In this document: piece after piece, positions 2,469-52,066 of the stretch
Layout: each line of letters begins with the position of its first letter
Position numbering within the stretch: position 1 is the stretch's first letter
Source: Dechloromonas denitrificans
Lineage (GTDB): Bacteria > Pseudomonadota > Gammaproteobacteria > Burkholderiales > Rhodocyclaceae
Assembly (NCBI RefSeq): GCF_020510665.1
Contig: NZ_CP075187.1
Location: 3,355,001-3,419,000 of the forward strand
Direction of reading: 5' to 3'
DNA: 64,000 bases
The notes under the pieces: generated by a model
Databases searched by the model: none
The model's input: only the letters and a program-made list of their open reading frames with translations
Told to the model about the DNA's origin: nothing
Position numbers and translations under genes: made by a program

Positions 2469-4225
2469 TGCGCCATCTGCCGATCGCCCTTTTCGTCGCG
2501 CTGCTCGGCATCAGTCCGCTGCTGCTGCCCGAGTTTCATGTCACGCTGCTCAATTACATCGGGCTGTACGCCATCGTTGCCGTCGGTCTGGTCCTGCTGA
2601 CCGGCGTCGGCGGCCTGACCTCGTTCGGCCAGGCGGCCTTTGTCGGCCTCGGTGCTTACACAACCGCCTGGTTGACCACGGCCTACGGTCTGTCGCCCTG
2701 GCTGACCCTGCTGATCGGCCTGGCCATCACCGCGTCGGTGGCGTTGTTCCTCGGTTTCATCACTTTGCGCATGGGCGGCCACTACCTGCCGCTTGGCACC
2801 ATTGCCTGGGGCATGAGCCTATATTTCCTGTTCGGTAATGTTGAATTCCTTGGCGGCCATACCGGTATCACCGGCATTCCGACCGTCGAACTGTTTGGCT
2901 GGGAACTGAAATCAGGGCGTGAATTTTTCTACCTGATCTGGCTGGTCGTCCTGCTCGCCATCCTGACCATCCGCAATCTGCTCGATTCACGTCAGGGCCG
3001 CGCCATCCGCGCACTCAAGGGCGGCACGGTGATGGCCGAGGCGATGGGCGTCAATACGCCGCAGGCCAAGATCGTCATTTTCCTGATCGCCGCCTTGCTG
3101 GCCAGCATTTCCGGCTGGCTCTATGCCCACCTGCAACGCTTTGTGAATCCGACGCCATTTTCACTGACCCAGGGTATCGAATACCTGTTCATGGCCGTCG
3201 TCGGCGGTATCGGTCACGTCTGGGGTGCCGTACTCGGCGCCGGGCTGATCACCATCCTCAAGCAATGGCTGCAGGACCTGCTGCCGCAATTGCTCGGCCA
3301 GAGCGGCAATTTCGAGATCATCGTCTTCGGCATCGCCATGGTGCTCATTTTGCAGCGGGCGCGTGACGGTATCTGGCCGCTGATTCTCAAGCTCGTGCCG
3401 GAACGCCGGGTCAAGCGCGCCGTGCCGCAAGCCGACGCCATGCCGCGCCGCCAACTGGCCGAGGGCGGCACGCTGCTGCTGGAAGCCACGGAGGTAACCA
3501 AGCGCTTCGGCGGACTGGTCGCCAACAACCAGTTGTCGCTCACCGTCAAGGCCGGTGAAGTCATGGCGCTGATCGGGCCGAACGGCGCCGGCAAGAGCAC
3601 GATGTTCAACTGCATTTCCGCGGTCAACCCGGCCAGCGAGGGCAAAATCGAGTTTCTCGGCGAGTCGACCGCGAAGATGGTTTCGCGCGACATTGCCCGG
3701 CGCGGCATGAGCCGGACGTTCCAGCATGTCCGCCTGCTTGGCCAGATGTCGGTGCTCGAAAACGTGGCCATCGGCGCCCATCTACGCGGCAGCAAGGGGG
3801 TTCTGGCCGCCGCCTTGCGCCTCGACCGTACCGAAGAAAACCGCCTGCTGGCCGAAGCTGCCCGTCAGATCGAACGCGTCGGCCTGGCCGAGCACATGTT
3901 CGAACCGGCCGGCAGTCTCGCCCTTGGCCAGCAGCGCATTGTCGAAATTGCCCGTGCACTATGTTCCGACCCCTGCCTGCTGTTGCTCGACGAGCCGGCG
4001 GCCGGCCTGCGCTATCGTGAAAAACAGGCATTGGCCGAACTGCTCGGCAAGCTGCGCAGCGAAGGCATGGGCATCCTGCTGGTCGAACACGACATGGATT
4101 TCGTCATGGGCCTGGCCGATCGCATCGTCGTCATGGAATTCGGCGAGAAAATCGCCGAGGGCCTGCCGGAAGAAATTCAGCGCAACCCGAAGGTGCTCGA
4201 AGCCTACCTCGGCGGCGTGGAGTAA
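2465..4225 (+). CDS. livM: Fused LivM permease-LivG ATPase of a branched-chain amino-acid-type ABC transporter
   Basis: A 586-residue fusion. Residues about 1-310 are a LivM-type permease ([47 protein letters not shown]). After a linker rich in basic residues, about 340-586 are a LivG-type ABC ATPase: Walker [10 protein letters not shown] at 371-379, the degenerate signature LALGQQR usual for LivG, and Walker B ending D509-E510. The two functions are separate genes in E. coli but occur fused in several proteobacteria. The fusion fixes permease to ATPase stoichiometry. ATGA overlap with livH upstream, 3 bp gap to livF downstream. Confidence 0.92.
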
Positions 4226-4228
4226 ATC

Positions 4229-4990
4229 ATGACCAAGCACCCGCATTTGCACGACCACGAAATCATCCTCGAAGTGAAGGATCTGCGCGTCGCCTACGGC
4301 AAGGTCGAAGCCTTGCACCAGGTCAGCCTGACCATCCGGCGCGGCGAAATCGTCACCGTCATCGGTCCGAATGGCGCCGGCAAGACGACCTTGCTTTCCG
4401 CCCTGATGGGCTTGTTGCCGGCCGATGGCGACATCGTCTACATGGGCCATGCCCAGGGCCGCGAGCGTCAGGTCGAAACCCTGGTTCGCCAGGGGATGAC
4501 GCTGGTACCGGAAAAGCGCGAGCTGTTCTCCGAAATGAGTGTCGAGGACAACCTGGTCCTCGGCGCCTTCGACCGCTACCGCACCGGCCACCGCGACCAC
4601 ATGGAAACGATGGACGAGGTTTTCGAACTTTTCCCGCGCCTCGAAGAACGCCGCAACCAGCTGGCCGGCACTTTATCCGGCGGCGAACGCCAGATGCTGG
4701 CGATGGGCCGCGCACTGATGGCCAAGCCCAAACTCTTGATGCTCGATGAACCCAGCCTGGGGCTTGCCCCGCTGATCATCAAGGAAATTTTCCGCATCAT
4801 TTCCGAACTGAAAAAGACCGGCGTCGCCATCCTGCTGGTCGAGCAGAATGCCCGCGCCGCGCTGCAAATCGCCGATTACGGCTATGTGCTGGAAACCGGT
4901 GAAGTCTCGCTGGCCGGCCCGAGCAATGAGCTGGCGGCCGATCCGCGGGTGATCGAAGCCTATCTCGGACTCGGGCAAAAGCAGCACTGA
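4229..4990 (+). CDS. livF: Branched-chain amino-acid-type ABC ATPase LivF
   Basis: A 253-residue cytoplasmic ABC ATPase, the second nucleotide-binding subunit of the LivHMGF transporter. Walker [10 protein letters not shown] is at 46-54, the signature LSGGERQ starts at 149, and Walker B LLMLDEPSLGL follows. The PSLGLAP and LVEQN segments are typical of LivF. The N-terminus has a short His-rich stretch (HPHLHDHE) ahead of the domain. It starts 3 bp after the LivM-LivG stop and is the last gene of the operon. It converges on the response-regulator gene with 21 bp between the stops and no obvious terminator hairpin. Confidence 0.93.
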   Translation: MTKHPHLHDHEIILEVKDLRVAYGKVEALHQVSLTIRRGEIVTVIGPNGAGKTTLLSALMGLLPADGDIVYMGHAQGRERQVETLVRQGMTLVPEKRELFSEMSVEDNLVLGAFDRYRTGHRDHMETMDEVFELFPRLEERRNQLAGTLSGGERQMLAMGRALMAKPKLLMLDEPSLGLAPLIIKEIFRIISELKKTGVAILLVEQNARAALQIADYGYVLETGEVSLAGPSNELAADPRVIEAYLGLGQKQH

Positions 4991-18005: not shown

Positions 18006-18031
18006 AAAAAAAGGGCAGCCAAGGCTGCCCT
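18006..18031. terminator. Left copy of the atpC/ubiJ bidirectional terminator hairpin
   Basis: Seven A residues (18006-18012) lead into the inverted repeat GGGCAGCC-AA-GGCTGCCC followed by a single T, after which IS copy 1 begins. With the right-hand copy it reconstructs an ordinary bidirectional intrinsic terminator (A tract, GC stem, T tract) between atpC and the convergent ubiJ. In this left copy the T tract has been cut off by the insertion, so atp transcripts would rely on the IS-borne terminator at 18044-18076. Confidence 0.8.
18012..18031 (+). repeat. Left 20-bp target-site duplication of IS copy 1
   Basis: These 20 bases are identical to 19633-19652 on the other side of the IS. The duplicated sequence is exactly the terminator hairpin: A, eight-base arm, AA, eight-base arm, T. 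Because the bordering bases T and A can also be counted as IS ends, the duplication may be read as 18 bp. Confidence 0.9.
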
Positions 18032-18043
18032 CAGACTGCTGAC

Positions 18044-18076
18044 AAAGCCTCCAAGCGATTGGGGGCTTTATTTTTT
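18044..18076 (+). terminator. IS copy 1 left-end inward terminator
   Basis: Arms AAAGCCTCCAA (18044-18054) and TTGGGGGCTTT (18059-18069) pair over 11 bp with one T:G wobble around a GCGA loop, followed by ATTTTTT. Transcripts entering the IS from atpC would end here. The T tract runs into the TATAAT box of the transposase gene. Confidence 0.7.
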
Positions 18077-18081
18077 ATAAT
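18076..18081 (+). promoter_or_regulatory. -10 box of the transposase gene, predicted leaderless transcript
   Basis: A perfect TATAAT lies only 6 bp before the transposase ATG at 18088. Transcription normally begins about 7 nt after the -10 box, so the mRNA would begin at or next to the start codon. No convincing -35 element is seen at 17 bp, and the T tract of the terminator overlaps the box. The same arrangement exists in copy 2. Confidence 0.55.
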
Positions 18082-18087
18082 GCAGGC

Positions 18088-19560
18088 ATGCTCAAGCCTG
18101 TCTACCCCGCCCAAACGGAACTGGAGATGGTGACGTTGGAGCAATTGGTCCCGAAAGACCACTTGCTCCGGCTGCTCGACCAGCACATCCGGTTTGATTT
18201 CATTCGTGAAGCGACCCAGCACCTGTATTGCGAGAACAATGGCCGACCAGCGATTGATCCGGTGGTGTTGTTCAAGATGTTGTTCATTGGCTACCTGTTC
18301 GGGATTCGCTCCGAGCGACGGCTGGTGAAGGAAATCGAGGTCAATGTGGCTTACCGCTGGTTTCTCGGCTTTCGACTGACGGACAAAGTGCCGGATGCCT
18401 CGACGCTGTCGCAGAATCGGCGTCGCCGCTTTGTCGGGACGGACATTGAGCAACGCATCTTCGACGGGATTGTCGAGCAAGCCATTGAGCATAAGCTGAT
18501 TGGCGGGCGGGTGCTTTACACGGACAGCACGCATCTGAAGGCGAATGCCAACAAACGGCATTTTGAGGTGCATCAGGTCGAGCAAACCCCTGCGGCCTAC
18601 CTGGCCGAACTGGATGCAGCCATCGAAACGGACCGAGCCGCCGCGGGCAAGAAGCCGCTCAAGCGTGATGACGATGATTCGACACCGCCGATGAAGGAGG
18701 TCAAGGTCAGCACGGTCGATCCCGACGCAGGTTTCATGGCCCGCGACAACAAGCCGACCGGCTTCTTCTATCTGGATCACCGGACTGTCGATGGCGTGCA
18801 TGCTTTGATCGTCGATACCCATGTCACGCCGGGCAATGTCCATGACAGCCAGCCCTACCTTGCCCGCCTGGATCGGGTCATGGAGCGCTTTGATCTGGCC
18901 GTGGGCGCCGTCGGGCTGGATGCCGGGTATTTCACCCCGCAAGTCTGCAAGGGCCTCCTCGAGCGGGCACTGTTCGGGGTGATGGGCTACAAGCGACCCA
19001 CACACCGCGATGGCTATTTCTACAAACGGGACTATCTCTACGATGCGGTCCAGGACTGCTACCGCTGCCCGGCCGGGGAGGTTCTACCGTACCGGACGAC
19101 CAACCGGCTGGGTTATCGCGAATACGCCTCGAACCCGGCGCGGTGTGCCGATTGCGGCGTGCGCGGGCAATGCACGCAGAGCCGGAACCATCAGAAGCTC
19201 GTGACCCGACATCTCTGGGAAGGTTTCAAGGAAGCGATCAACGCCAATCGCCTGAGCGACCTGGGCAAACGGCTGTACGCCCGGCGCAAGGAAACGGTGG
19301 AGCGCAGTTTTGCCGATGCCAAGGAGTTGCACGGCCACCGTTACGCCCGTTTCCGTGGCTTGGCCAAGGTGCAAGCGCAGTGCCTGCTCTCGGCGGCCTG
19401 TCAGAACATGAAGAAGATGGCCCTGTTGCTGGCCCGCAAGGCGGCAGCCTTATTGGCCAAAATCCTCGCACGAACCCGTTTTGCCGCCCCATTCGCCCGC
19501 CATCTTTGGCAGATCGGGGTTCCTAACCTGAATTTCAGAATCCGCCTCGCTTCGGCTTGA
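18088..19560 (+). CDS. IS1182-family transposase (copy 1)
   Basis: A 490-residue DDE transposase. An N-terminal DUF772-type domain (PKDHLLRLLDQHIRF, NGRPAIDPVVLFKMLFIGYLFG) precedes the catalytic core. Likely catalytic residues are D146 (YTDSTHLKA), D278 (GLDAGYF) and E405 (RRKETVERSFADAK). A CADC/CGVRGQC cysteine cluster around 351-361 may bind zinc. The frame is intact, so the element may be active. It differs from copy 2 by two residues: P193 here is S there (KKPLKR/KKSLKR), and L here is I in CKGLLERA/CKGILERA. No Shine-Dalgarno is visible; translation is probably leaderless. Confidence 0.93.
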   Translation: MLKPVYPAQTELEMVTLEQLVPKDHLLRLLDQHIRFDFIREATQHLYCENNGRPAIDPVVLFKMLFIGYLFGIRSERRLVKEIEVNVAYRWFLGFRLTDKVPDASTLSQNRRRRFVGTDIEQRIFDGIVEQAIEHKLIGGRVLYTDSTHLKANANKRHFEVHQVEQTPAAYLAELDAAIETDRAAAGKKPLKRDDDDSTPPMKEVKVSTVDPDAGFMARDNKPTGFFYLDHRTVDGVHALIVDTHVTPGNVHDSQPYLARLDRVMERFDLAVGAVGLDAGYFTPQVCKGLLERALFGVMGYKRPTHRDGYFYKRDYLYDAVQDCYRCPAGEVLPYRTTNRLGYREYASNPARCADCGVRGQCTQSRNHQKLVTRHLWEGFKEAINANRLSDLGKRLYARRKETVERSFADAKELHGHRYARFRGLAKVQAQCLLSAACQNMKKMALLLARKAAALLAKILARTRFAAPFARHLWQIGVPNLNFRIRLASA

Positions 19561-19597
19561 AGCCAGGAGTCTCCCTGATTTCCAACCAGAAAAACAA

Positions 19598-19619
19598 AAC
19601 CCCCGAAAAATCGGGGGTT
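19598..19619 (-). terminator. IS copy 1 right-end inward terminator
   Basis: Stem AACCCCCGA / TCGGGGGTT with a four-base loop. Read on the minus strand it is followed by TTTTGTTTTT, so it would stop transcription entering the element from ubiJ. Read outward it lacks a T tract. It lies just after the transposase stop codon. Confidence 0.7.
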
Positions 19620-19632
19620 CGTCAGCAGTCTG

Positions 19633-19656
19633 AGGGCAGCCAAGGCTGCCCTTTTT
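19633..19656. terminator. Right copy of the atpC/ubiJ terminator with target-site duplication
   Basis: 19633-19652 repeats 18012-18031 base for base, followed here by the original T tract (19652-19656) and TATTT-like sequence. For ubiJ transcripts coming from the right, the hairpin remains but the downstream U tract is replaced by IS sequence, which supplies the terminator at 19598-19619. Confidence 0.8.
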
Positions 19657-49529: not shown

Positions 49530-50411
49530 ATGAGCCAAGCGCAACAAAGACGAGTCATCATGTTTGCCGACATATCGGGCAGTGCCGGGCTGTTCGAGCA
49601 TCTCGGCCAGGCCGAGGCGGCCTATGCCATCGAACGTTGCGTCAACCGGATGTCCCGCTCGATCGAAGGCTATGGCGGACTGATTGGTGAAATGGTCGGT
49701 GACGAATTACTCGCCAGTTTCGAAACCGCGGCAGAAGCCTGCCTTGCCGCCATCGACATGCAGCAGCGCATCGCCGATCTGCCCGCGGTGTCGGGGCACA
49801 AACTGAGTATTCGTATCGGCATTCATGCGGGCCAGGTCAGTTTCAACGGACAAAAACCGGTGGGCGAAACAGTCACCACGACCGCTCGGATTGCCGGCAT
49901 CGCCGGTGGCGACCAGATTCTCGCCAGTTCGGTCATTCAGGCTGAAATCATCGATCATCCGGCCATCATCCTGCAGGCCCAACCCGGCCGTGGGACGATC
50001 CGCGAGTCGACCGCCTCGGTCAGCCTGTTTCTGGTTCGGAATCCGGCCCCCAAGGAAGATGCCGCTGCCGCACCAGCGGCTGCTCAAGCGGCAAAACTGA
50101 CAATTCGCTATCGTGGTAAATCGTTCCTGATGGACGAAAAAAGTCAGACGCTCACCTTTGGCCGCGATCTGGGATGCAAGATTCTGGTTGAAGATCGCAA
50201 AGCCTCTCGTCAGCATGCCCGGATCGAACTTCGGCCAGAGGGATTCTTTCTGGTCGACACAAGCACCAATGGCAGTTTTGTCAGCTTCGGAAAACATCGG
50301 GAAGTCATGGTCAGGCACCATGAAATGCGCCTCGAAGGTGAGGGCTGGATCGCCTTTGGCAACTCCGGCAACGACCCTTCGGCAGACAAGGCCGAATTCA
50401 GCCTGCAGTAA
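49530..50411 (+). CDS. Class III nucleotidyl cyclase-like protein fused to an FHA domain
   Basis: A 293-residue cytoplasmic protein. Residues about 8-165 are a class III cyclase domain with both metal-binding aspartates (D14 in FADISGSAG, D58 in EMVGDELLASF), and IGIHAGQV follows. Whether it makes cAMP or cGMP is not evident. After an Ala/Pro-rich linker, about 190-285 form an FHA phosphothreonine-binding domain (LTFGRD, RKASRQHARIE, DTSTNGSFV). It may couple Ser/Thr phosphorylation to cyclic-nucleotide output. It ends 4 bp before a bidirectional terminator broken by IS copy 2. Confidence 0.87.
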   Translation: MSQAQQRRVIMFADISGSAGLFEHLGQAEAAYAIERCVNRMSRSIEGYGGLIGEMVGDELLASFETAAEACLAAIDMQQRIADLPAVSGHKLSIRIGIHAGQVSFNGQKPVGETVTTTARIAGIAGGDQILASSVIQAEIIDHPAIILQAQPGRGTIRESTASVSLFLVRNPAPKEDAAAAPAAAQAAKLTIRYRGKSFLMDEKSQTLTFGRDLGCKILVEDRKASRQHARIELRPEGFFLVDTSTNGSFVSFGKHREVMVRHHEMRLEGEGWIAFGNSGNDPSADKAEFSLQ

Positions 50412-50413
50412 AT

Positions 50414-50439
50414 AAAAAGGCCATCCGAAGATGGCCTTT
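50414..50439. terminator. Left copy of the cyclase/psiF bidirectional terminator with target-site duplication
   Basis: Bases 50416-50439 (24 bp) are identical to 52041-52064. They consist of a ten-base arm (AAAGGCCATC), the loop CGAA and the exact complementary arm GATGGCCTTT. Five A residues precede the GC stem. IS copy 2 starts at the next base. The intact ancestor would have been a bidirectional terminator between the cyclase-FHA gene and psiF. Confidence 0.85.
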
Positions 50440-50452
50440 CAGACTGCTGACG

Positions 50453-50474
50453 AACCCCCGATTTTTCGGGGGTT
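50453..50474 (+). terminator. IS copy 2 inward terminator (transposase 3' end)
   Basis: AACCCCCGA / TCGGGGGTT stem followed on the plus strand by TTTTGTTTTT. It faces into the element and would stop transcription arriving from the cyclase-FHA gene, replacing the host U tract that the insertion separated from its hairpin. Confidence 0.7.
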
Positions 50475-50511
50475 TTGTTTTTCTGGTTGGAAATCAGGGA
50501 GACTCCTGGCT

Positions 50512-51984
50512 TCAAGCCGAAGCGAGGCGGATTCTGAAATTCAGGTTAGGAACCCCGATCTGCCAAAGATGGCGGGCGAATGGGGCGGCAAAACGGGTTC
50601 GTGCGAGGATTTTGGCCAATAAGGCTGCCGCCTTGCGGGCCAGCAACAGGGCCATCTTCTTCATGTTCTGACAGGCCGCCGAGAGCAGGCACTGCGCTTG
50701 CACCTTGGCCAAGCCACGGAAACGGGCGTAACGGTGGCCGTGCAACTCCTTGGCATCGGCAAAACTGCGCTCCACCGTTTCCTTGCGCCGGGCGTACAGC
50801 CGTTTGCCCAGGTCGCTCAGGCGATTGGCGTTGATCGCTTCCTTGAAACCTTCCCAGAGATGCCGGGTCACGAGCTTCTGATGGTTCCGGCTCTGCGTGC
50901 ATTGCCCGCGCACGCCGCAATCGGCACACCGCGCCGGGTTCGAGGCGTATTCGCGATAACCCAGCCGGTTGGTCGTCCGGTACGGTAGAACCTCCCCGGC
51001 CGGGCAGCGGTAGCAGTCCTGGACCGCATCGTAGAGATAGTCCCGTTTGTAGAAATAGCCATCGCGGTGTGTGGGTCGCTTGTAGCCCATCACCCCGAAC
51101 AGTGCCCGCTCGAGAATGCCCTTGCAGACTTGCGGGGTGAAATACCCGGCATCCAGCCCGACGGCGCCCACGGCCAGATCAAAGCGCTCCATGACCCGAT
51201 CCAGGCGGGCAAGGTAGGGCTGGCTGTCATGGACATTGCCCGGCGTGACATGGGTATCGACGATCAAAGCATGCACGCCATCGACAGTCCGGTGATCCAG
51301 ATAGAAGAAGCCGGTCGGCTTGTTGTCGCGGGCCATGAAACCTGCGTCGGGATCGACCGTGCTGACCTTGACCTCCTTCATCGGCGGTGTCGAATCATCG
51401 TCATCACGCTTGAGCGACTTCTTGCCCGCGGCGGCTCGGTCCGTTTCGATGGCTGCATCCAGTTCGGCCAGGTAGGCCGCAGGGGTTTGCTCGACCTGAT
51501 GCACTTCAAAGTGCCGCTTGTTCGCGTTCGCCTTCAGGTGGGTACTGTCGGTGTACAGCACCCGCCCGCCAATCAGCTTGTGCTCAATGGCTTGCTCGAC
51601 AATCCCGTCAAAGATGCGTTGCTCAATGTCCGTCCCGACAAAGCGGCGACGGCGATTCTGCGACAGCGTCGAGGCATCCGGCACTTTGTCCGTCAGTCGA
51701 AAGCCGAGAAACCAGCGGTAAGCCACATTGACCTCTATTTCCTTCACCAGCCGTCGCTCGGAGCGAATCCCGAACAAGTAGCCAATGAACAACATCTTGA
51801 ACAACACCACCGGATCAATCGCTGGTCGGCCATTGTTCTCGCAATACAGGTGCTGGGTCGCTTCACGAATGAAATCAAACCGGATGTGCTGGTCGAGCAG
51901 CCGGAGCAAGTGGTCTTTCGGGACCAATTGCTCCAACGTCACCATCTCCAGTTCCGTTTGGGCGGGGTAGACAGGCTTGAGCAT
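50512..51984 (-). CDS. IS1182-family transposase (copy 2)
   Basis: An intact 490-residue DDE transposase with the same domain layout and catalytic residues (D146, D278, E405) as copy 1. Two residues differ: KKSLKR here against KKPLKR, and CKGILERA against CKGLLERA. Around codons 70-165 there are about fifteen silent third-position or leucine-codon differences, ten of them within about 56 bp, whereas the rest of the gene is almost identical. The start lies 6 bp after a TATAAT box, so the transcript is probably leaderless. Confidence 0.93.
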   Translation of the reverse strand: MLKPVYPAQTELEMVTLEQLVPKDHLLRLLDQHIRFDFIREATQHLYCENNGRPAIDPVVLFKMLFIGYLFGIRSERRLVKEIEVNVAYRWFLGFRLTDKVPDASTLSQNRRRRFVGTDIEQRIFDGIVEQAIEHKLIGGRVLYTDSTHLKANANKRHFEVHQVEQTPAAYLAELDAAIETDRAAAGKKSLKRDDDDSTPPMKEVKVSTVDPDAGFMARDNKPTGFFYLDHRTVDGVHALIVDTHVTPGNVHDSQPYLARLDRVMERFDLAVGAVGLDAGYFTPQVCKGILERALFGVMGYKRPTHRDGYFYKRDYLYDAVQDCYRCPAGEVLPYRTTNRLGYREYASNPARCADCGVRGQCTQSRNHQKLVTRHLWEGFKEAINANRLSDLGKRLYARRKETVERSFADAKELHGHRYARFRGLAKVQAQCLLSAACQNMKKMALLLARKAAALLAKILARTRFAAPFARHLWQIGVPNLNFRIRLASA

Positions 51985-51990
51985 GCCTGC

Positions 51991-52028
51991 ATTATAAAAA
52001 ATAAAGCCCCCAATCGCTTGGAGGCTTT
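51991..52028 (-). promoter_or_regulatory. IS copy 2 inward terminator overlapping the transposase -10 box
   Basis: Mirror image of the copy 1 left end: an 11-bp stem (52028 to 52003) followed by ATTTTTT that runs into TATAAT (51996-51991) and, 6 bp later, the ATG at 51984. Transcription from psiF would stop here, and the transposase promoter begins at the same spot. Confidence 0.65.
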
Positions 52029-52040
52029 GTCAGCAGTCTG

Positions 52041-52066
52041 AAAGGCCATCCGAAGATGGCCTTTTT
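52041..52066. terminator. Right copy of the cyclase/psiF terminator with target-site duplication
   Basis: 52041-52064 repeats 50416-50439 exactly and is followed by the remaining T residues of the original T tract (52062-52066). psiF transcripts read through this hairpin into the IS end, where the IS terminator lies. Confidence 0.85.

Follow-up and report, generated by a model that had tools for sequence, protein, structure and literature searches.

An insertion sequence (IS) of the IS1182 family, two copies of which lie in the window (the whole 64,000-bp stretch of Dechloromonas denitrificans DNA that was analysed), probably takes a folded palindrome as its target and is inserted by symmetric cuts at the two feet of the stem, with the result that the whole stem-loop is duplicated. 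We infer that the palindrome is captured as a cruciform, and give this reading a probability of about 0.8. The data suggest that the transposase reads the shape of the DNA more than its letters.

The element and its two copies in the window

The features of the two copies are as follows (positions are those of the window).

50440..52040, minus strand: IS copy 2, 1601 bp, with the terminal inverted repeat CAGACTGCTGAC at both ends
50416..50439, no strand: copy 2, left 24-bp target duplication, a full hairpin (AAAGGCCATC-CGAA-GATGGCCTTT) resembling a bidirectional terminator and present once in the empty site of genome G031
52041..52064, no strand: copy 2, right 24-bp target duplication, an exact direct repeat of 50416..50439
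50452..50475, no strand: copy 2, subterminal hairpin at the transposase-distal end (GAACCCCCGA-TTTT-TCGGGGGTTT), its foot at base 13 from the tip
52003..52028, no strand: copy 2, subterminal hairpin at the transposase-proximal end, its foot at base 13 from the tip
50512..51984, minus strand: copy 2, transposase gene, 490 aa, IS1182 family
18032..19632, plus strand: IS copy 1, with its transposase at 18088-19560, plus strand
18012..18031, no strand: copy 1, left 20-bp hairpin duplication (AGGGCAGCC-AA-GGCTGCCCT)
19633..19652, no strand: copy 1, right 20-bp hairpin duplication
18044..18069, no strand: copy 1, subterminal hairpin at the transposase-proximal end
19597..19620, no strand: copy 1, subterminal hairpin at the transposase-distal end

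The first-pass annotation of this DNA had described copy 2 as lying within a 24-bp direct repeat that is itself a complete hairpin, and this is what the sequence contains, the repeat being exact and the hairpin having ten-base arms and a CGAA loop. Its further statement that the target of copy 2 is unrelated to that of copy 1 also holds, as the 20-bp repeat of copy 1 has a different sequence. Over 1601 bases the two copies of the IS have 19 differences. At both window targets the full palindrome runs from A5 to T5 and is 28 bp long, and the edge of the repeat falls inside the outermost possible A:T pair, by 2 bp at copy 2 and by 4 bp at copy 1. In the occupied site of copy 1 each hairpin copy retains one of the two tracts and has the other across the IS.

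The transposase is encoded by a single open reading frame of 490 aa with DDE_Tnp_1 and DDE_Tnp_1_6 domains and scores 473.5 bits against the IS1182 family model NF033551, the curated cut-off of which is 270. Residues D146, D278 and E405 are invariant across 18 aligned transposase sequences and, by this conservation alone, are the putative catalytic DDE residues. An AlphaFold2 model of the protein was poor (pLDDT 63, pTM 0.47), and a search by sequence for a relative of solved structure gave no convincing match (ribosomal L13 at E 0.005 and a TnsB at E 0.06).

All twenty copies in the genome duplicate a hairpin

The genome carries 20 copies of the IS that are 97-100% identical, plus one lone end fragment (L022), and all 20 copies sit in hairpins of differing sequence. 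The duplications are 17-32 bp long (mean 21.5, n = 20), and every one of them begins with A, ends with T and encloses a hairpin; the two repeat copies differ by one base at L009 and by two bases at L010. The hairpin flanks the IS on both sides in 20/20 copies, rather than being removed without duplication as in replacement of the IS1272 type.

The first-pass annotation had proposed from the two window copies that duplication length follows hairpin length, and had named a constant length, or no link to inverted repeats across the genome, as the result that would count against it. The 20 copies range from 17 to 32 bp and all lie on hairpins. Constant length, the mark of a fixed stagger, is thus found neither within this one genome nor in the pooled set described below (16-32 bp). 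Plotted over the insertion sites of this genome, duplication length follows that of the GC stem-loop core (r = 0.82). Total palindrome length, which was tried first as a predictor, was weak in this genome, there being no significant correlation of duplication length with the palindrome including its A/T tracts (r = 0.37, p = 0.11), and it was replaced by the GC core and by a position-resolved test of pairing.

At each target the position of the first cut was read from the right flank of the IS and that of the second from the left flank, so that the two measurements come from opposite sides of the element. Measured in this way, the cuts mirror each other exactly about the dyad of the hairpin in 17/20 copies (shuffled mean 2.7, maximum 11 in 100,000), and the number of A residues kept equals the number of T residues kept in 17/20 copies (shuffled mean 6.1, maximum 14).

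In L019 (far end L021), one of the 20 copies, 1328 bp of other DNA (3057-4384) splits the IS at its position 1556, close to the start of the transposase. This inserted DNA has the ends GACCCGTCCT and AGGACGGGT, is unrelated to the IS and is flanked by the 6-bp repeat CATTAT.

Empty sites in a sister genome

The sister genome G031 belongs to the same genus, has 98% amino-acid identity at one neighbouring gene and gave no transposase match. G031 was searched for empty sites with 19 flank pieces as queries, in addition to the locus already in hand. Of the 20 insertion sites, 16 are unoccupied in G031 and contain one hairpin each; the empty sites of L005, L008, L012 and L019 were absent from the matches in G031, that of copy 1 being among these. 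At all 16 recovered sites the overlap of the two flanks on the G031 hairpin equals the duplication seen. The empty site of copy 2 is a single hairpin with one loop base changed, and in the hairpins of L006 and L014 both arms differ between the two genomes with pairing preserved. The cuts of L002, L003 and L011 are genuinely asymmetric, since the same register is found at their empty sites.

The hairpin behind the gene orthologous to 49530-50411 recurs in relatives L175-L179, where it has a similar stem (GGCCATC..GATGGCC) and the T tract is missing.

Site-specific pairing begins at the cut

Elements with transposases of 56-94% identity were taken from Dechloromonas/Azonexus, Alteromonadaceae, Acidobacteria, Desulfuromonadales and other genomes, in up to 20 copies. 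Of 87 copies attempted (the 20 above included), 77 were located by their end patterns; those not located in this way were L158, L143, L041, L039, L042, L023, L055, L025, L026 and L027. Contig ends cut L024, L028, L030, L034 and L037, and L038, L043-L053, L084, L086, L087 and L090 were outside the pooled count. Long repeats of 16-32 bp flank 74 of the 77 located copies, the other three (L132, L093 and L040) having no long repeat at the ends chosen. Among the unlocated copies, L041 has a 13-bp repeat and, judged by eye, no convincing hairpin.

Symmetry about the dyad is exact at 67/74 pooled sites (7.5 on average after shuffling, with a maximum of 19). Relative to the GC core, the cut position has a variance of 1.1, versus 4.6 with the lengths shuffled, and 0/20,000 shufflings gave a value as low. 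Over the 67 symmetric sites duplication length again follows the GC stem-loop (r = 0.76), and its Spearman correlation with total pairing including the A/T tracts is 0.50. Mean pairing over the 74 sites is 0.91 within a site versus 0.42 between sites, as expected of a target that is an inverted repeat of any sequence.

The sample was extended with plasmid loci, 14 out of 60 listed among 1476 matching records, which have 41-60% identity and eight of which are from Bacillota. Matched hairpin duplications of 18-30 bp were found at 11/14 of these loci (10/11 symmetric, six in Bacillota); at L166, L169 and L170 no matched repeat was found. Altogether 77 of 85 insertions, from the original genome and from relatives in several phyla, are symmetric about the hairpin dyad. 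Of the eight sites off the dyad, six are displaced by 0.5-1.5 bp and two (L033 and L097) by 5-6 bp, and at these two the repeat copies differ in sequence.

A position-by-position test over the 85 sites compared arm pairing within one site with that between sites at each distance from the cut. The excess of within-site pairing is small or nil outside the cut (z = 0.2-1.8 at -2 to -10 and 3.0 at -1), rises to 3.6 at +1, a position almost always occupied by A, and reaches 10-12 from +2 inward. Site-specific pairing therefore begins at the cut, indicating that cutting occurs at the feet of the stem. Taken with the symmetry of the cuts, this switching on of pairing indicates that structure, and not a fixed stagger, sets the duplication. 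The earlier proposal that the transposase cuts at the bases of the stem without a fixed stagger was thus upheld, at 77/85 sites by symmetry and at 16/16 by empty sites, with a play of 0-5 bp in the A/T tracts. At 58/67 symmetric sites the cuts fall 1-3 bases beyond the outermost G:C pair. Note that Watson-Crick pairs run beyond the cut at 43/67 symmetric sites (A:T pairs only in 37/43), and hence the last pair by itself does not define the foot.

Where the insertions land

Scanned with a looser stem minimum, 18/20 targets in the genome have an A-rich 5' flank and a T-rich 3' flank. The exceptions are L018, which is one-sided, and L003, which is mis-scored, its palindrome extending through the tracts. 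By these flanks the 18 targets resemble Rho-independent terminators, in which a T tract follows a GC-rich stem, and are putative terminators. A 400-kb sample of the genome served as background. Its hairpins whose stem core is 7 bp or longer number 163, of which 14 have both flanks, 32 have one and 117 have neither; in the same core class both flanks are present at 11/12 targets (Fisher p = 6e-10). Within the window 79 hairpins have a stem core of at least 6 bp, and A-rich 5' plus T-rich 3' flanks occur only at the two targets and at the IS end hairpins. The first-pass annotation had called the two targets the only strong bidirectional terminators seen at convergent gene ends in the window, and this was borne out, the IS end hairpins aside.

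Such flanks could also be what the enzyme recognizes. It might bind two inverted A-tract motifs (AAA|A) with flexible spacing in B-form DNA, and terminators would then be targeted only for carrying an A tract and a T tract. This agrees with the strong preference for hairpins having both flanks and with the base composition at the feet: the first base inside the cut is A at 0.89 of 148 feet (74 sites), and A has a frequency of 0.74-0.84 at -1 to -3. However, cuts made independently at two motifs should fall out of register, yet they are symmetric and the A and T residues kept are equal in number at most sites. Moreover, spacings that vary from 16 to 32 bp pass through over a full turn of the helix, a range that should be beyond a rigid dimer on duplex DNA, and some targets (e.g. 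L137 and L092) are without the A. We regard such duplex recognition as unlikely.

Gene context was assigned by a codon-usage score, which classified 17/20 sites and left three unclassified. An estimate based on the longest open reading frames misread both window copies and was replaced by this score. The classified sites comprise 11 between convergent genes, six between co-directional genes and none between divergent genes, compared with 32/176 convergent among background intergenic regions (p = 9e-5). The idea that the element inserts between convergent genes is correct for both window copies (L001 and L008); over the genome this is the commonest context (11/17) but not the sole one. That convergent ends are preferred may be no more than a consequence of the target requiring a tract on each side.

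Each site in the genome has one or more scored genes ending no more than 66 bp before it. On the flank and gene-context data alone, targeting and selection against other sites are inseparable, and the harmless position of all 20 copies is what would be expected if insertion were random and only insertions into terminators survived, those elsewhere having broken genes or operons. Survivorship, however, cannot produce symmetric cuts at stem feet or a duplication equal to the hairpin. In addition, the same pipeline gave mostly 4-bp repeats for distant IS1182 members, and the unrelated insertion in L019 made a 6-bp repeat. Random insertion without structural targeting is therefore very improbable.

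Hairpins at the ends of the element

Most elements of the clade have a hairpin resembling the targets directly inside the terminal repeat at both ends. The foot of this hairpin is exactly at base 13 at the left end of 19/25 elements and at the right end of 22/25, the criterion being at least 7/9 pairs, which shuffled interiors reach in 72 (left) and 57 (right) of 2500 cases. By the score used, 20/25 clade elements have a hairpin at both ends compared with 0/19 distant elements, the 25 including near-identical elements. The left-end arms covary between elements, positions 4-9 pairing at 0.58-1.00 within elements versus 0.24-0.68 between them. The six Bacillota elements for which a matched repeat was found have even the left tip within a stem, the foot being base 2 of the element and 9-11 of 11 pairs being formed; nine pairs are reached in 13/3000 shuffled interiors and in 0/19 other elements.

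The end hairpins suggest that the enzyme partly recognizes its own ends as hairpins. Alternatively, they may stop incoming transcription; right-end hairpins have inward-facing T-rich stretches, which left-end hairpins often do not. In 50416-50475, reading outward on the transposase strand, only TT follows the end hairpin, and the duplicated host terminator may thus be what ends the transposase transcript.

A model for hairpin duplication

DDE transposases normally leave a duplication of fixed length, which is set by the geometry of the strand-transfer complex. In our model a dimer of a DDE transposase holding both IS ends would capture the palindrome as a cruciform, which is a four-way junction, and each of the two hairpins facing each other would have one 3' end of the IS joined to its 5' foot. 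The feet at a four-way junction would be adjacent whatever the length of the stem, and hence one fixed active-site geometry could give a variable duplication once the arms unfold and repair copies them. As the terminator is duplicated rather than destroyed, both flanking genes can keep one, which suggests how an IS may reach many copies while doing little damage.

Hairpin targeting and symmetric cuts are also predicted if the enzyme instead captures a hairpin on one exposed strand, at a replication fork or in a transcription bubble, and replication and transcription do expose such strands. Two points make this improbable. The protein matches DDE transposase families, and among its matches there were no HUH or tyrosine families. 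Moreover, duplication of a whole hairpin by a DDE enzyme should require attack on both strands at the two 5' feet, and a single-stranded hairpin would not provide these.

The cruciform reading can be carried a step further, although we hold this extension only tentatively and consider it somewhat more likely to be wrong than right: the transposase of this clade may be a hairpin-foot enzyme that recognizes a four-way junction not only in the target but also at the IS ends, where the six Bacillota left ends have their stem foot at the second base and most proteobacterial ends have a hairpin 13 bases in. Were this so, a supplied palindrome would program the target and the length of the duplication would be a read-out of the extruded arm. 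The duplicated, deleted and ~4-bp outcomes seen in the family would then differ only in the strand or the place on the junction that is attacked.

Distant IS1182 members differ in their targets

Distant members of the family, about 30% identical to the present transposase, still score above the cut-off of the IS1182 model NF033551 (5/5 tested). A candidate repeat of 3-9 bp was found at 24/32 of their loci and was 4 bp long at 20 of these, the count being made on candidates restricted to 3-9 bp; an unrestricted scan gave a 14-bp imperfect repeat at L078. Repeats (DR) of 4 bp are given for ISPse1 (PMC3281130) and ISCaa15 (PMC3196728).

The 4-bp targets (L101, L104, L119 and those of other distant members) have in common the degenerate dyad-symmetric consensus GAatGnCcGCt...GGCC...aGCgGnCatTC. 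Over 19 such sites pairing within a site was 0.447, compared with a mean of 0.407 and a maximum of 0.500 between sites; by subclade, the values within and between sites were 0.424 versus 0.443 and 0.469 versus 0.362 (maximum 0.527). An imperfect palindrome centred on the repeat was found at 7/24 sites at p <= 0.01. Duplication of the loop (pathway c of Wan) was considered for these elements and set aside, as the shared dyad-symmetric sequence explains the sites at least as well. The 4-bp members seem to read sequence more than structure, and their GGCC-centred consensus looks like a separate, sequence-specific targeting rule.

The 4-bp members (ISPse1 and ISCaa15; L104, L119 and L063 here) thus share the NF033551 model with the present element but differ from it in having mostly 4-bp repeats, a sequence consensus without clear within-site covariation, no end hairpins (0/19) and separate branches in the transposase tree. 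A branch with an SH-aLRT value of 99 separates the hairpin duplicators from the rest in a quick tree of 44 transposases, IS1272 not included. One change of duplication mode on this tree is enough; a warning given by the program concerns long branches that meet at L111.

Relation to known systems

Hairpin targeting within the IS1182 family has already been reported for IS1272. In PMC5678879 and PMC4923244, IS1272 and TnSha1, IS1182-family elements of staphylococci, are described as having target hairpins of unrelated sequence with no primary-sequence consensus. Furi 2016 (PMC4923244) reports for TnSha1 and IS1272 that several target hairpins are confirmed terminators and that the deletions are blunt. 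In target choice the present element works like IS1272: it belongs to the same family, its target hairpins are unrelated in sequence and share no primary-sequence consensus, and several are of the terminator type. A tandem duplication of the left end is also found in both (IS1272L there, L132 here). The present element is without the defining hairpin replacement, however, for IS1272 deletes the hairpin without duplication whereas the clade described here duplicates the whole hairpin.

Whole stem-loop duplication is drawn in pathway b of Fig. 13 of Wan 2017 as a hypothetical branch only, and the same paper, citing Siguier 2015, mentions without detailed data that some IS1182 members target palindromes (PMC5678879). 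In the passages of the literature searched, with ISfinder, TnPedia and Siguier 2014/2015 outside the scope, duplication of a whole hairpin was not described as something actually observed; as the rule of a clade it appears to be new. What Wan had drawn as a hypothetical branch for IS1272 is the rule of a clade and can now be tested. A clade whose duplications of 16-32 bp follow the fold is a natural data set for structure-directed transposition, and annotation that expects short repeats may miss such duplications.

IS elements that insert in REP palindromes also have a palindromic target, described as repetitive REP sequences (PMC1525189), whereas the hairpin sequences used here vary from site to site.

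Folded DNA is likewise recognized in IS200/IS605 transposition and in integron attC recombination. These use HUH or tyrosine enzymes acting on single strands, without target duplication, and the present clade differs in having DDE_Tnp_1-type domains.

Rearranged and tandem copies

At L040, L042, L093, L166 and L169 the hairpins at the two IS ends are both complete but differ from each other, which suggests that copies have recombined or that adjacent DNA has been rearranged. Three copies in Dechloromonas denitrificans (L025, L026 and L027) have cyclically permuted flanking hairpins (x-IS-y, z-IS-x and y-IS-z), pointing either to copies having recombined or to an assembly error at the repeats. 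In L132 (G213) the left end, comprising the terminal repeat and its hairpin, occurs twice in tandem, with the 20-bp hairpin repeat located beyond the extra copy. Finally, L140 and L153 (G663) are tandem IS copies with one hairpin repeat in common, an arrangement consistent with a second insertion into the duplicated hairpin of the first copy and hence with no strict target immunity.
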